Shown in pieces: positions 9,578 through 32,326 of a stretch of 64,000 bases of DNA. The position numbers and the translations under genes are program-made. Every line of letters begins with the position of its first letter. Position 1 is the first letter of the stretch. Under the pieces are notes generated by a model. It did not search any database. It saw only the letters and a program-made list of their open reading frames with translations, and was not told the origin of the DNA. This DNA comes from Paludibacteraceae bacterium (GTDB lineage Bacteria; Bacteroidota; Bacteroidia; Bacteroidales; Paludibacteraceae), in assembly GCA_017503075.1 (NCBI GenBank), contig JAFVTU010000009.1, positions 162,959 to 226,958 on the forward strand, read 5' to 3'.

Positions 9578-9780
9578 TCCCCCTCGCCGCATTTGATAAG
9601 ATTCAGCGGTTGCGTTTTGGGATGTTCCCTTCTTTGGGGCCCCCGCGAGCTTCGTGAGCAAGTGGGGAGAGGAGAAACGGCGGCAACCTCAACGAGCCAA
9701 GCGAGTTCATTGTTGCAAGCCTGTTTCGACGAAAGCATAATACACCCCCGAGCACAAGCCGAGTGCTTATGGGATATTAG
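9578..9780. repeat. GC-rich non-coding segment with short inverted repeats
   Basis: No convincing gene. The segment contains several short inverted repeats, for example AGCAC...GTGCT at about 9751-9770, and motifs such as GAGCTTCGTGAGC and GTTTCGACGAAAGC. It lies between the barrel gene and the TPP riboswitch and resembles the hairpin-rich intergenic regions seen elsewhere in this window. Confidence 0.5.
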
Positions 9781-9794
9781 CTAACTATAGTATT

Positions 9795-9866
9795 AACCAA
9801 CAGGGGTGCCTCTCACGGCTGAGATTATACCCTTTGAACCTGGGCAGGTAATGCTGCTAAGGAAGT
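9795..9866 (+). promoter_or_regulatory. TPP riboswitch (THI element)
   Basis: The conserved core is clear: CAGGGGTGCC, GGCTGAGATTATACCC, TTGAACCTGGGCAGGTAATGC split across the two arms, then GCTAAGGAAGT. Thiamine pyrophosphate binding would stabilise the P1 stem. The 3' strand of the element (GGAAGT) ends at the ATG of the TonB receptor at 9867, so ligand binding would sequester the ribosome-binding region; control is probably translational. No separate terminator hairpin fits. Confidence 0.95.
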
Positions 9867-12149
9867 ATGAAAAAATTCTCTTTCTTTCTCTCCGCCACTT
9901 TGGCGGCAAGTGTCGTTGCACATGCGCAAACGGACACCATCACCCTTACCCGACAATTGGATGAGGTCACAATCAACGCGCCAGTGGCGCAAGTCACTAA
10001 CAATCACACAGCGCTCACCAATGAGCAGCTCAATCAGAGCAACACGGGGCAGAATCTTCCCTTCTTGCTCTCTGCTACGCCTGCTCTCGTGGCTACCAGC
10101 GACGATGGACTAGGAGTAGGGTACACCTATTTCCGCATCCGTGGTACCGATCACACCCGTATCAACATGACGCTCAATGATGTCCCGCTCAACGATAGCG
10201 AGAGTCAAACTGTCTTTTGGGTCAATATGACCGACATGGCTAGCAGCATGTCCTCGCTTGATGTCCAACGCGGTGTAGGCACCTCCACCAACGGTAGCGC
10301 CTCCTTCGGTGCCAGCATCAACATGTCCACCTCATCACCTAATCACCTCATCACCTCATCGCCTGATAACCTCATCGCCTCATCCGTAGGCTTATCCTTC
10401 AACGGCGGTATGTACAACACTTTCCGCGAGATGGTGAATGCCCATATCGTGCTACCTAACCAATGGCGAGCTAATGCCCGATTCTCCAAAGTCAATTCCG
10501 ATGGCTTCCTCTACCGCACTGCCTCCGACCTCTATTCCTATTACGGCGATCTTGGGTGGTATGGCGATAAAACAGAAGTCGTTGGTCGCTTCTTTGGTGG
10601 CAGCGAGAAGACAGGCATGGGTTGGGATGGCGTGGATTATAACACTGCCTATGGCATCAATGGTGCCGACCGACGCTATAACCCTGCAGGCGAATATACC
10701 ACTACTGCTGCTGACGGCTCCGATTCTACTGCCTACTATCCCAACCAAACCGACAACTACGCCCAACAGCATGCACAACTATCTGTTCTCCATCGCTTCA
10801 CGCCCCAATGGTCACTCTCTGCCACTGCCCACTATACCCATGGCGCGGGTTACTACGAGCAATACAAACGCAAGAAACTCTCCTATTGGGGATTATTGGG
10901 CAATGGGCAATTGGCTATAGGTAATGGGGATAGAAAATCCTATGGCATGTACCGCAAGCAACTCGACAACCATTTCTTTGGCGGAGTGGTGGCTGCTAAG
11001 TATATTTCTGAGCTAGTAGATGTGCAGTTTGGTGGCGCAGCCAACTACTATACGGGTGACCACTTTGGCACGCTGCATTACCTCGAAGACTCGCTTATCC
11101 TGCCTATCAACTACGAATACTACCGCAACGAAGCCAAGAAGACAGATGCGAATATTTATGCCAAAGCCAACTGGCGCATTATCAATCGCGCACAAGAGCA
11201 ACTCTCGCTGTATGCCGACCTCCAATACCGCTATGTGCGCTATGAGCGCAATGGTCTTAACGATGAAGATATGACCGACTTGCCTCTGGAGGTCAACTTC
11301 CATTTCTTCAACCCAAAGGCGGGCTTGACCTACCAAAACCGTGGTCACTTGCTCGCTGCTTCTTTCGCTATTGCCAACCGTGAACCTAGTCGCAACAACT
11401 ACAAGGAGAATGTCGTCTACGACGCTTCTACCGGCGAATATACCGGCCTGCCTCATGCCGAACGCCTCTACGACTACGAGCTCGGCTATACCTATTCCCA
11501 TCCTCGCTTTGCTGTCGGCGCCAACCTCTATTTCATGGACTACGACAACCAACTCGTCCTCACAGGCGAGTACAACGATGTGGGTGCGTATAAGACCAAG
11601 AATGTCAAGGACTCGTATCGTATGGGAGCCGAACTTACCGCAGGGGTCAAGATCACCAACTGGCTGCGTTGGGACGCTAACCTCGTGGCTTCACGCAACA
11701 AGATCCTCAATTACCACCAGTATATCGACCTATACGACGACCAAGACAATTGGAATTGGGTAGGGCAGGACTCTGTAGTAGGCACTACCACCATCGCTTT
11801 CTCGCCAACCCTTACTGCTTCCTCCCTCTTCACTTTTGATGTGGCAGGTTTCACGGCTACTGTTCAGACGAATGTGGTAAGCAAGCAGTATTTGGACAAT
11901 ACCCAGGACGAGAACGCCATGCTCCGTGCATATTCCACCACCAACCTCAATCTCCAATACCTATTGCCAATAGCCAATAGCCAATGGCCTACTATCCGCC
12001 TCTTGTGCCAGATTAACAATATCTTCAATGCCAAGTATGCCAATAATGGTGGTGCGGAGGCCAGTAGGTTTATGGATGGCAGCCGCTGCTGTTGGTATTA
12101 TGCCCAGGCGGGTATCAATGTCCATGCTGGATTTATAGTTGTATTCTAA
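9867..12149 (+). CDS. TonB-dependent outer-membrane receptor, probable thiamine uptake
   Basis: 760 aa. A signal peptide (MKKFSFFLSATLAASVVAHAQ) is followed by a plug domain (about 25-150; YFRIRGTDHTRINMTLNDVPLND, DVQRGVGTSTNGSASFG) and a 22-strand barrel ending with a C-terminal aromatic strand, VHAGFIVVF. The TPP riboswitch abutting its start indicates a thiamine or thiamine-precursor substrate, matching the TPP-regulated receptors (omr1 type) described for Bacteroidota; substrate is inferred, not seen. Three in-frame tandem-repeat insertions occur: residues about 154-173 (8-bp units), 343-355 (7-bp) and 699-708 (7-bp), probably in extracellular loops. Confidence 0.88.
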   Translation: MKKFSFFLSATLAASVVAHAQTDTITLTRQLDEVTINAPVAQVTNNHTALTNEQLNQSNTGQNLPFLLSATPALVATSDDGLGVGYTYFRIRGTDHTRINMTLNDVPLNDSESQTVFWVNMTDMASSMSSLDVQRGVGTSTNGSASFGASINMSTSSPNHLITSSPDNLIASSVGLSFNGGMYNTFREMVNAHIVLPNQWRANARFSKVNSDGFLYRTASDLYSYYGDLGWYGDKTEVVGRFFGGSEKTGMGWDGVDYNTAYGINGADRRYNPAGEYTTTAADGSDSTAYYPNQTDNYAQQHAQLSVLHRFTPQWSLSATAHYTHGAGYYEQYKRKKLSYWGLLGNGQLAIGNGDRKSYGMYRKQLDNHFFGGVVAAKYISELVDVQFGGAANYYTGDHFGTLHYLEDSLILPINYEYYRNEAKKTDANIYAKANWRIINRAQEQLSLYADLQYRYVRYERNGLNDEDMTDLPLEVNFHFFNPKAGLTYQNRGHLLAASFAIANREPSRNNYKENVVYDASTGEYTGLPHAERLYDYELGYTYSHPRFAVGANLYFMDYDNQLVLTGEYNDVGAYKTKNVKDSYRMGAELTAGVKITNWLRWDANLVASRNKILNYHQYIDLYDDQDNWNWVGQDSVVGTTTIAFSPTLTASSLFTFDVAGFTATVQTNVVSKQYLDNTQDENAMLRAYSTTNLNLQYLLPIANSQWPTIRLLCQINNIFNAKYANNGGAEASRFMDGSRCCWYYAQAGINVHAGFIVVF
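10328..10383. repeat. Seven 8-bp tandem units inside the TonB receptor gene
   Basis: Unit consensus CACCTCAT with changes (CACCTAAT, CGCCTGAT, AACCTCAT, CGCCTCAT). It encodes a Ser/Leu/Pro/Asn-rich loop after the plug domain. Confidence 0.88.
10895..10929. repeat. Five 7-bp tandem units inside the TonB receptor gene
   Basis: ATTGGGC, AATGGGC, AATTGGC, TATAGGT, AATGGGG in 7-bp register; encodes GNGQLAIGNG. Confidence 0.8.
11963..11990. repeat. Four 7-bp tandem units inside the TonB receptor gene
   Basis: ATTGCCA, ATAGCCA, ATAGCCA, ATGGCCT; encodes PIANSQW. The reverse complement (TGGCTAT) resembles the units at 10895-10929, so the same word family occurs in both orientations in one gene. Confidence 0.8.
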
Positions 12150-15337: not shown

Positions 15338-15461
15338 GATGGGGAACCTTGGGGGGATTTCTTCGTAATCCCCACAGTCTGCCACGGGCATCCTGTGCAA
15401 ATCTTTTTACTCTCAATCTCACTTGAGCAAGCTCAGATTCGATTGTTCGTAAAAATCTTTG

Positions 15462-15549
15462 CGGAGAGAGGGGGATTCGAACCCCCGAAACCCTTTTGGA
15501 GTTTACACGCTTTCCAGGCGTGCCTCTTCAACCACTCGAGCATCTCTCC
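15462..15549 (-). tRNA. tRNA-Ser (anticodon GGA)
   Basis: 88 nt on the minus strand with the long variable arm of a type II tRNA. Acceptor GGAGAGA pairs with TCTCTCC; the anticodon loop CTGGAAA gives GGA; T arm GGGGG TTCGAAT CCCCC. The structured leader repeat ends 1 nt before its 5' end. Confidence 0.95.
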
Positions 15550-15550
15550 T

Positions 15551-15650
15551 TCGCGTTCGGCAATTTCGCGCATTGACCAACGACAATATCGTTGTTAGGG
15601 CGCTCAATGCCTCCGCTCTATCCTCGAAGCCACGTGCTTCTCGGATGTTT
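15551..15650 (-). ncRNA. Structured 100-nt leader element, copy A (5' of tRNA-Ser)
   Basis: Read on the minus strand from AAACATCCGAGA to GCCGAACGCGA, this aligns without gaps to 30158-30257 on the plus strand. Three stems can be drawn: GAAGC/GCTTC with a 5-nt loop; GCATTGA/TCAATGC enclosing AACGA/TCGTT; and CGCG/CGCG. Relative to copy B, three base pairs of the first stem and one of the last are changed on both sides so that pairing is kept. It ends 1 nt before tRNA-Ser, downstream of a promoter at 15807. An RNA role is inferred; a palindromic DNA repeat is the alternative. Confidence 0.7.
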
Positions 15651-15806
15651 TTTAAGAACTTATAGGATTGTCGCATAAACGACGCTTGTCAGCGTCCTTG
15701 GGGCGACCGCGATTCCTTCTCCTAACTCGGATTTTCAATGAACATTTTTGGCATAGGCGCGGAAGCGTTTTCGTTCGCGAAACGACACAATACGCCTAAT
15801 GACCCG

Positions 15807-15814
15807 CAAAGGTA
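15807..15814 (-). promoter_or_regulatory. -7 box upstream of the leader element and tRNA-Ser
   Basis: TACCTTTG on the minus strand; TGTG 20 bp upstream is a weak -33 element. The transcript would start near 15800 and run about 250 nt before tRNA-Ser. The 15651-15800 stretch has short inverted repeats but no gene. Confidence 0.7.
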
Positions 15815-29898: not shown

Positions 29899-29940
29899 CT
29901 TATCTAAACTCCTCTACCATTACGCTATCAACTACGTTAC

Positions 29941-29984
29941 ATATACGATAGATACACGATAGATATACGTTAGATACACGATAG
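29941..29984. repeat. Four 11-bp tandem units after malQ
   Basis: ATATACGATAG, ATACACGATAG, ATATACGTTAG, ATACACGATAG; alternation gives a 22-bp higher-order period. No gene is seen between 29844 and 30256. Confidence 0.9.
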
Positions 29985-30070
29985 ATAACCCTATTCTTAC
30001 CGTAGGAACACCATATTTATCAAATACTTGTACTATTTCACTAAAAAATCACAAATTTCCCCTCCAAAAC

Positions 30071-30101
30071 TTGCAAATCTGTAAAACTTTCACTACCTTT
30101 G
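30071..30101 (+). promoter_or_regulatory. Promoter of the leader element and the 30257 gene
   Basis: TTG (30071-30073), 20-bp spacer, TACCTTTG (30094-30101). The mRNA would begin near 30108 with a 150-nt leader that contains the whole structured element. Confidence 0.82.
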
Positions 30102-30157
30102 CACCCATAATTAACAATCATTGTCCCCTCCGACGGCAAGGAGGAGTCTCCCTCTAG

Positions 30158-30256
30158 AAACATCCGAGAGTTTCGTGAACTCGAGGATAGAGTGGAGGCA
30201 TCGAACGCCCTAACAACGACGAGGTCGTTGGTCAATGCGTGAGATTGCCGAACACG
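30158..30256 (+). ncRNA. Structured 100-nt leader element, copy B (5' of the 30257 gene)
   Basis: Same element as 15551-15650. Stems: GAGTT/AACTC with a 5-nt loop (TCGTG); GCATCGA/TCAATGC (one mismatch) enclosing AACGA/TCGTT; and CGTG/CACG. The first stem differs from copy A at three base pairs and the last at one, all compensated. The alignment stops exactly at the ATG of the following gene, so the last stem could control translation. A separate CTCC...GGAG hairpin lies just upstream (30126-30144). Confidence 0.72.
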
Positions 30257-30601
30257 ATGGCTAAAACCACTCTCTCTCATCCCTTCGACTCCATGTCGGG
30301 CAAACTCGGCTCTACCGATAAGATTATCATGCGTACGCGCAATGGTCGTACGCATGCTTATGTAGTCAAACACCCGTATAAAGGCCCTCTTGCACCTTCT
30401 CGCCAGAAAGCTGTTTCTTCTTTCGCGGAGGCAGTCAAACAAACCTCTGTCATCATGAACACCCCCGAACTCCGTAGCGAATGGGAAAAGAAATATGCCG
30501 CATACCGCAAGCAAGCCGACCGCTATCCTAATACGCACCCCAATCCTTATACCACTTTTCGCGGCTTCATCATCGGCTCCCTGATCCACGCCTCTGAATA
30601 G
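30257..30601 (+). CDS. Conserved small protein of unknown function
   Basis: 114 aa starting MAKTTLSHPFDSMSGKLGS; an in-frame ATG 18 bp upstream lies inside the structured leader and is less likely. The protein is basic (RTRNGRTHAYVVKHPYKGP) with a helical middle and a Tyr/Arg-rich C-terminus (EWEKKYAAYRKQADRYP). No signal peptide or transmembrane segment. I recall similar uncharacterised proteins in Bacteroidales but no function. It has its own promoter and the structured leader, and is monocistronic. Confidence 0.75.
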   Translation: MAKTTLSHPFDSMSGKLGSTDKIIMRTRNGRTHAYVVKHPYKGPLAPSRQKAVSSFAEAVKQTSVIMNTPELRSEWEKKYAAYRKQADRYPNTHPNPYTTFRGFIIGSLIHASE

Positions 30602-31144: not shown

Positions 31145-32326
31145 GTGCATCTTATTTATGCTTATTTGGATAATGATAATAAGGTAGTTTACATAGGAAG
31201 GACTAATAATATCCGTCAACGACATTCGCAACATAATAGGATCTCGTATAAGTACAAAACTTATGATGTGGTTAAACGATATTTTATCTCCATTGGTATA
31301 ATAGACAAATTACCAAATCCTATTATTCTTGAGGATAATTTGAATTTAGTAGAATCTCAGGCTAAAGAAGAATATTATATCAAAAAATATAAAGATAATG
31401 GTTGGAATATTTTAAACACTGCAAAAACGGGTGTTAATGTATCTTCCACAGGTTCTTTTGTTAAAAAATGGACTTACAGAGAGTGTGAAAAACTAGCATT
31501 ATCTTGCAAGACTAGAAAAGAGTTTGAAAGTAAAAGTAGTGGAGCTTATTCAGTATCAAAAAAGAATGGGTGGATTGATAAATGGCTTCCTATTTCTACT
31601 AATTATCATAAGGCAGAATATTCATGGACAAAGGAGTTGTGCATTGATATCGCAAAAAAATACACTTCTATTACCGAGTTTTCTCGACAGGAATCACAAG
31701 CATATCATGCTGCTAAACGGCATGGATGGATTAAAGATTTTAATTGGTTGAAAAGAGCACAACGTACACCAATTACAGAAGAAGAAATTATACAAATAGC
31801 TCAGAAATTTAAGTATGCATCAGATTTTAAGAAAAACTATCCTAGTCATTATCACCGTGCAAGAAAGATAGGTATCCTTAAAGACTTAGAATTTATTCCA
31901 AAAGAAAAGATAATGTGGACCTATGAAACATGTAGAGTTGAAGCTATGAAGTTTTCGTCTCAAATTGCTTTTAGAAAAGCATCTCCAGTCGCCTACAATG
32001 TCAGTCTCAAGAAAAAGTGGGTTAATCAATGGCTTCCAAAAACGAATACTATCCGTACAGATCAGGAGTTACTGGAAGAAGCAAAATCATATACAAATAT
32101 TAATGATCTACGGAAGAATAACAACTCGCTATATTGCTTAATACAAAAAAGAGGATTATTGCAACATACTAAATTGAAATACATCCGCAAAAAATGGACA
32201 GATGAAAAAGTTAAGGAGGTTGCTGTTTGTTATAACACTAGATATGATTTCCAAAAAGGATGTAAAGGGGCATATAATTATGCCTTGAAGCATAAAATGC
32301 TAGATATCTTATTTCCAAATAAATAA
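31145..32326 (+). CDS. GIY-YIG domain protein with tandem repeat modules
   Basis: 393 aa from a GTG at 31145; the true N-terminus is probably upstream but interrupted by a stop. Residues 1-95 form a GIY-YIG nuclease-like domain: LIYAY (3-7), VVYIGRT (14-20), R24, H27 and E70-E76 in NLVESQAKEEYYI. Then six repeats of about 43 residues follow, each W-T-x-E, a hydrophobic helix, F-x-x...AY, and G-W-I/L-D...W-L-P, resembling DNA-binding modules of homing-type endonucleases. A/T-rich compared with neighbours. The DUF2971 gene follows after 14 bp. Role in defence or mobility is inferred, not shown. Confidence 0.75.
   Translation: MHLIYAYLDNDNKVVYIGRTNNIRQRHSQHNRISYKYKTYDVVKRYFISIGIIDKLPNPIILEDNLNLVESQAKEEYYIKKYKDNGWNILNTAKTGVNVSSTGSFVKKWTYRECEKLALSCKTRKEFESKSSGAYSVSKKNGWIDKWLPISTNYHKAEYSWTKELCIDIAKKYTSITEFSRQESQAYHAAKRHGWIKDFNWLKRAQRTPITEEEIIQIAQKFKYASDFKKNYPSHYHRARKIGILKDLEFIPKEKIMWTYETCRVEAMKFSSQIAFRKASPVAYNVSLKKKWVNQWLPKTNTIRTDQELLEEAKSYTNINDLRKNNNSLYCLIQKRGLLQHTKLKYIRKKWTDEKVKEVAVCYNTRYDFQKGCKGAYNYALKHKMLDILFPNK

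Follow-up and report, generated by a model that had tools for sequence, protein, structure and literature searches.

Why should a tRNA gene and a small protein gene of the same bacterium be preceded by nearly the same 100 nt of DNA? We have studied this question in a stretch of 64,000 nt from a Paludibacteraceae genome (the whole stretch is called the window below). Two of its regions, one on each strand, had been singled out as gap-free versions of a single structured leader carrying compensatory base changes, and three readings had been offered: a cis-regulatory RNA, a small RNA processed from the leaders, or a mobile palindromic repeat. The alignment stands, with 15551-15650 on the minus strand and 30158-30257 on the plus strand identical at 83 of 100 positions, and so do the ends. 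Actually, ARAGORN places the 5' end of tRNA-Ser(GGA) 1 nt from the end of the first stretch (copy 1), and the last base of the second (copy 2) is the A of the ATG of a small ORF. Promoters had also been described upstream of both. The TACCTTTG boxes were indeed found there by a pattern scan, and would correspond to the Bacteroidota -7 box, with a putative role as promoters. The idea of a leader common to two genes did not survive: both stretches are instead members of a dispersed repeat family. We conclude, with a probability of about 0.75, that this family is a mobile palindromic repeat of about 100 bp which is genus-specific and non-autonomous, and that it is of a similar kind to the Rickettsia palindromic elements (RPE). 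The features of the window are collected in Table 1.

Table 1. Features of the window that concern the repeat. R1 is the covariance model described in the text; copies 1 and 2 were among the sequences used to build it, and their own R1 scores are partly self-matches.
Feature	Position	Strand	Evidence
Copy 3, absent from the original prediction; upstream of a TPP-riboswitch-like leader	9638..9735	+	R1 40.4 bits, E 6e-9
tRNA-Ser(GGA), 5' end adjoined by copy 1	15461..15549	-	ARAGORN, Rfam RF00005
Copy 1, 5' leader of tRNA-Ser(GGA)	15551..15650	-	R1 match 15549-15649(-), 105.2 bits, E 4e-26; fold z -4.4
Copy 1, hairpin A	about 15646-15620	-	
Copy 1, hairpin B	about 15616-15553	-	
Candidate second copy, decayed, immediately upstream of copy 1	15652..15767	-	R1 13.8 bits, E 0.07, weak
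TACCTTTG promoter-like box, tRNA-Ser transcript	15807..15814	-	pattern scan; putative role
TACCTTTG promoter-like box, small-ORF transcript	30094..30101	+	pattern scan; putative role
Additional hairpin P0 (CCCCTCC...GGAGGAG) upstream of the repeat, belonging to the compound leader	30125..30147	+	read from sequence
Copy 2, ends at the small-ORF ATG	30158..30257	+	R1 match 30159-30259(+), 102.5 bits, E 2e-25; fold z -3.7
Small protein gene, 114 aa	30257..30601	+	no Pfam or NCBIfam family

The covariance model R1, built from five copies of the own genome, matched this 2.06 Mb genome 32 times, always with E < 0.01 and in both orientations. These matches correspond to 29 places when a stretch present on two contigs, C13 and C29, is taken only once, since three of the matches recur there. 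That stretch includes tRNAs as well as copies, and its double presence is probably a duplication of the assembly; the assembly is listed with 5.49% contamination. An exact-pattern scan of 84,980 named genomes retrieved at least 120 stretches, and the 80 listed titles among the matches were all Paludibacteraceae, Bacteroidales or Bacteroidia MAGs, by name mostly from herbivore guts. Among the relatives, 26 of 61 genomes had R1 matches, and all belonged to the own genus (26/37 against 0/24 in other families). A second covariance model, R2, made from 115 copies of the named genomes, matched at E 1e-4 in 134 of 151 genus genomes (Paludibacteraceae-type gut MAGs); at most 25 candidates were scored in each, so the copy counts per genome are lower bounds. 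Across the order, R2 matched in 2 of 247 genomes, both of the own genus, which makes one genus out of 173. The 172 other genera gave no match under strict filters and with 15 candidates per genome, conditions that may hide weak relatives. An origin from phages, viruses or plasmids was considered and rejected: two exact patterns had no match in the viral_contigs collection, nor did blastn with copy 1 find any in the plasmid and phage collections.

Copies 1 and 2 share the same two-hairpin fold, and in both cases it beat all of 200 shuffles. In the window copies hairpin A reads ATCC-GA-GAAGC-NCGTG-GCTTC-GA-GGAT, with an NCGTG loop that is conserved in many copies of the family, and in hairpin B symmetric internal loops interrupt a long stem (GCG-GA-GGCA-TT-GA-GCGC-CCTAAC-[inner hairpin]-GGTCAAT-GCGC-GA-AA-T-TGCC-GAA-CGC). 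The original prediction had drawn four stems. Stem 1 (GAAGC/GCTTC, hairpin 1) is helix 1 of the family alignment, with 95.4% of cells paired, and the inner stem AACGA/TCGTT is helix 5, with 96.2%. The middle stem GCATYGA/TCAATGC and the last stem CGCG/CGCG have to be abandoned, with 64.4% of cells paired versus 62.3% in shuffles for the former and 52.3% versus 50.3% for the latter. The changed bases of this last stem pair at long range (GCG/CGC becomes GTG/CAC, GCGC/GCGC becomes ACGC/GCGT), so that the compensated change proposed there is real as two long-range pairs instead of one local pair. Homologues do keep the pairing, as had been anticipated, with another structure for two of the four stems. 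Over 28 own-genome copies, 90.9% of the pair cells were standard, versus 64.0% (sd 1.1) after shuffling and 29.6-42.0% when the alignment was slid, and double changes appeared at 27 of 27 pairs; in the 115 copies from named genomes the values were 94.4% versus 73.2%, with double changes at 26 of 27 pairs, all these pair counts being inflated because the alignments were fitted to the structure model. A comparison with Rfam, which had been suggested as a check, gave no family at cut-off at copy 1 or copy 2 and only tRNAs in the window. With E up to 10, the sole match inside copy 1 itself had 12.6 bits, and five own-genome loci with copies gave tRNA plus sub-cut-off matches only against Rfam 15.

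We have also looked at the kind of pairs that make up the fold. G-U pairs represent 4.9% of the folded pairs in the sense strand and 2.8% in the antisense one, compared with 10.8% in 26 tRNAs of the same genome and 12.1% in random 100-mers. This low wobble suggests that the arms are kept complementary as DNA, i.e. that we are dealing with a DNA palindrome. On the other hand, it is the sense strand that folds better in 153 of the 164 copies, and mismatches of the G-T type exceeded A-C ones in the three alignments (14:9, 9:2 and 72:11, in total 95 vs 22), an excess that is not clean, as the sequence-structure model favours G-U. Folding of the sense strand together with the G-T excess would suit selection on RNA.

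The comparison of orthologous loci shows filled and empty sites between close species. Relatives of the 114-aa small protein are found in 43 of 61 genus genomes, and its leader has an R1 match at 2 of 30 loci, those of the own genome and of G063. These two leaders are identical over P0 and the repeat (130/130), and the 110 nt upstream of the copy 2 leader agree at 95/106 positions. G014, with a small protein about 95% identical, and G025 have short AT-rich leaders with no repeat. For tRNA-Ser(GGA), R1 matched at 3 of 30 loci (own, L292 and L305), with none at the same gene of the close relatives G014, G025, G063 and G082. The gene groEL has a match at 1 of 30 loci (own) and infB at 3 of 30 (own, G063 and G082), both names being assigned by NCBIfam, with IF-2 coming from a partial protein below the whole-protein cut-off. 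The infB copies belong to different subfamilies: that of G082 coincides with the own one at 65 of 87 aligned positions (75%), and it is 96/100 identical to a G014 copy located before an unrelated gene. The same spot holding different subfamilies, and one subfamily appearing at different genes, imply copying or conversion between loci.

Some copies are even found within proteins. We screened 164 distinct copies for open frames that traverse the copy and extend for 30 codons or more at each side, and 37 such frames appeared, some copies being counted twice on both strands, and most of them not being evidence of genes. Nine of the resulting proteins were checked. Eight had a Pfam match and the ninth had no family, and in seven of the nine the copy was in frame within or directly beside the recognised protein: a Clp ATPase of the own genome, DapB (twice), a Nudix protein, a FAD-dependent protein, an RlmL-like methyltransferase, where the copy makes a C-terminal tail, and a RecD-like helicase. 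In the eighth, a RhuM-like protein, the copy is in front of the domain. DapB is the most informative case, with the repeat present at 2 of 34 genus loci. The two dapB copies have identical A hairpins (28/28) over coding flanks that agree at 71/100 and 79/100 positions, and their inner B hairpins differ, giving lengths of 103 and 100 nt that are both in frame. This pattern would reflect module exchange or, with lower probability, two insertions. Seven species (loci L338, L342, L345, L348, L356, L357 and L360) have in the same DapB loop an AT-rich in-frame insert of another kind (GAATTAAAAATTAAAAATT-like).

The two ends of the repeat are placed very differently with regard to genes. Under one fixed rule, the 3' (B) end was flush with a tRNA end, a start codon, a stop codon or a transcription start in 64 of 161 cases, and the 5' (A) end in 9 of 160. 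Counting independent flanks, the values were 50/138 for B and 5/134 for A. The 115 named-genome copies gave 26/84 against 2/80 (Fisher p 5e-7), in a set that is only partly held out, as the rule was fixed after inspection of those copies too. Specifically, the B end was within a few bases of the 5' end of a tRNA or tmRNA in 19 copies, at a tRNA 3' end, antisense, in 8, at an ATG followed by an open frame of 60 codons or more in 14 (a few of them doubtful), and at an antisense promoter box in 12; an antisense stop codon (ORF of at least 100 codons) came after the B end in 16 copies, versus 1 to 6 in control windows. When the nearest feature on the B side was a tRNA or tmRNA, 27 of 35 copies were flush, and 0 of 7 on the A side. 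The B end of the remaining 97 of 161 had no recognised feature. Four loci (L096, L122, L131 and L175) have a common neighbour at the B side, which in sense reads GTTAG(T)..ATTCTT and may be a shared site or a further repeat. At L108, L110, L141, L143, L145, L150, L169 and L185 the B end is flush with a TTCTTTGA-like motif, possibly a boxA. A linkage of these eight copies to rRNA was discarded, as Rfam found no rRNA or other family there.

Of the three readings offered originally, the mobile palindromic repeat is the best supported, by the 32 matches, their two orientations, the in-frame copies and the filled and empty sites. The repeat would be copied into spacers or permissive loops, either by recombination between copies or with the help of an activity supplied in trans. 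At the B end, DNA free of constraint would be replaced as far as the first base under constraint, be it a start or stop codon, a tRNA end or a promoter, and since hairpin modules would be exchanged between copies, the arms could change in sequence and still remain complementary. Copy 1 would then be an insertion into the tRNA-Ser leader, and copy 2, with P0 and the repeat ending at the ATG, a putative ready-made 5' leader. Against this reading, no terminal duplication was seen by eye at the copies in dapB and groEL. We regard as doubtful a stronger version in which the spread is one-ended and edge-seeking, the B end being installed exactly at a functional border and hairpin modules being exchanged between copies. 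For this, integration might be directed by RNA ends, or the B end might erode unconstrained DNA until selection stops it. Such a way of moving, if true, has no counterpart among the MITEs, REPs or RPEs in the excerpts of the literature considered here.

An element selected as RNA would explain part of the same data. It would act in sense within 5' leaders, shaping tRNA maturation or translation, and its copies would have spread as useful leaders. Sense copies flush with an ATG or with the 5' end of a tRNA number 33 of 164, the sense strand is the one that folds better (153/164), and the leader of copy 2 is better preserved in G063 than the DNA upstream of it (130/130 vs 95/106). Copy 2 is moreover a compound form (P0 plus repeat), and by a loose regular expression a P0-like hairpin precedes 11 of the 14 ATG-flush copies versus 10 of the 150 others. 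This tie of P0 to ATGs hints at a function beyond mobility, and a leader role is possible for the subset that bears P0 and ends at an ATG. As a general answer a cis-regulatory RNA fails, because the flush copies are antisense to the adjoining gene (35, which come after a stop codon or the 3' end of a tRNA, or begin at a TSS) about as often as sense (33). The in-frame copies inside proteins also speak against it, and so do the orthologous leaders that lack the repeat, 28/30, 29/30, 27/30 and 27/30 at the four genes compared. We therefore consider it unlikely. A family of small RNA genes, processed from the leaders and acting in trans, would account for the conserved fold and NCGTG loop, and it is extremely improbable in view of inner hairpins that vary by copy and were swapped at one site, of copies in both orientations and of the lack of any Rfam match at cut-off.

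The repeat could also be a REP-type element mobilised through its hairpins by a RAYT (Y1/HUH) transposase. REPs are described, in the available part of PMC3733652, as imperfect, strand-specific stem-loops in many copies, some of them inside genes, and the repeat resembles them in all this; a weak Y1 match was found in 10 of 23 genus genomes searched, the own one included. According to the same excerpt REPs are 20-40 bp long, carry a GTAG or CGTC tag and are often linked to a RAYT, and the repeat found here has two hairpins over about 100 bp. Only 1 of 11 RAYT-like loci had a copy within 1.5 kb, and the copy-rich genomes G001, G012 and G014 had no Y1 match. RAYT was thus rejected as the evident mover, and we rate this origin as very unlikely; the search for a mover, which covered the Y1 domain, found no transposase for the repeat. 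Integron attC sites and the tail of a group II intron came to mind as further candidates and were set aside a priori.

The mobile palindromic repeat that we favour is closest to the RPE in its behaviour. In the excerpts of PMC2229807 and PMC10969869 available to us, RPE are dispersed imperfect palindromes of about 100-150 bp, some of them translated in frame in conserved proteins and others located in RNA genes. The repeat is likewise a dispersed imperfect palindrome of about 100 bp, with 32 matches in one genome, and is inserted in frame in conserved protein genes that have uninterrupted orthologues, as in DapB (2/34 filled). However, it belongs to another phylum, most of its copies are outside proteins, and it has two separate hairpins where RPE have a single terminal-repeat hairpin. 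It is limited to one genus among those sampled, and differs from RPE as these are described. Its flush one-ended placement at gene edges has no equivalent for RPE in the same excerpts. It is therefore RPE-like in behaviour and, as far as tested, not an RPE by sequence or architecture. The enterobacterial YPAL (RU-2) and ERIC (RU-1), non-autonomous palindromic repeats of 127-168 bp, also show filled and empty sites, as the repeat does, and YPAL shares transcripts with genes upstream of it and has its targets at or close to dyad symmetry, making target duplications of 3-26 bp, again from a partial view of PMC2229807; the comparison was made by description and Rfam only, and the two sites viewed by eye here had no such duplication. 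Finally, HMP2_1032 and HMP2_4078 are palindromic candidate structured RNAs of about 80-130 bp found by covariation in human-gut Bacteroidetes and, in the part of PMC8040213 consulted, described near particular genes or as terminators; the repeat is similar in size, covariation and host group, as compared by description only. A literature search on palindromic repeats of Bacteroidota or Paludibacteraceae, or on their association with tRNA genes, found no description, most subscription journals being outside its coverage.

The best-known in-frame palindromic repeats are those of Rickettsia, and here such repeats appear in gut Bacteroidota, which are free-living. As 134 of the 151 genus genomes gave matches and there are dated filled and empty sites, a comparative study of how such repeats originate would become possible. 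That one end alone is so commonly flush with gene borders leads to a definite prediction about the mover. There is also a warning in these data: strong compensatory covariation, often regarded as proving a functional RNA, is found here in a repeat that occurs in two orientations and also inside proteins.

Some other features of the window deserve mention. A TPP riboswitch match at 9792-9881(+) reached 51.1 bits with E 2.7e-9, a little short of the Rfam cut-off of 54.3 bits, directly 5' of a TonB-type receptor ORF at 9867 and with copy 3 located 56 nt upstream. At about 29938-29990 there are short tandem repeats of the GATAGATACAC / GATAGATATACG kind, which precede small-protein genes in many species, even without the palindromic repeat. 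At 31145-32326(+) we found an ORF resembling a GIY-YIG nuclease, followed, as judged by eye, by repeated segments.
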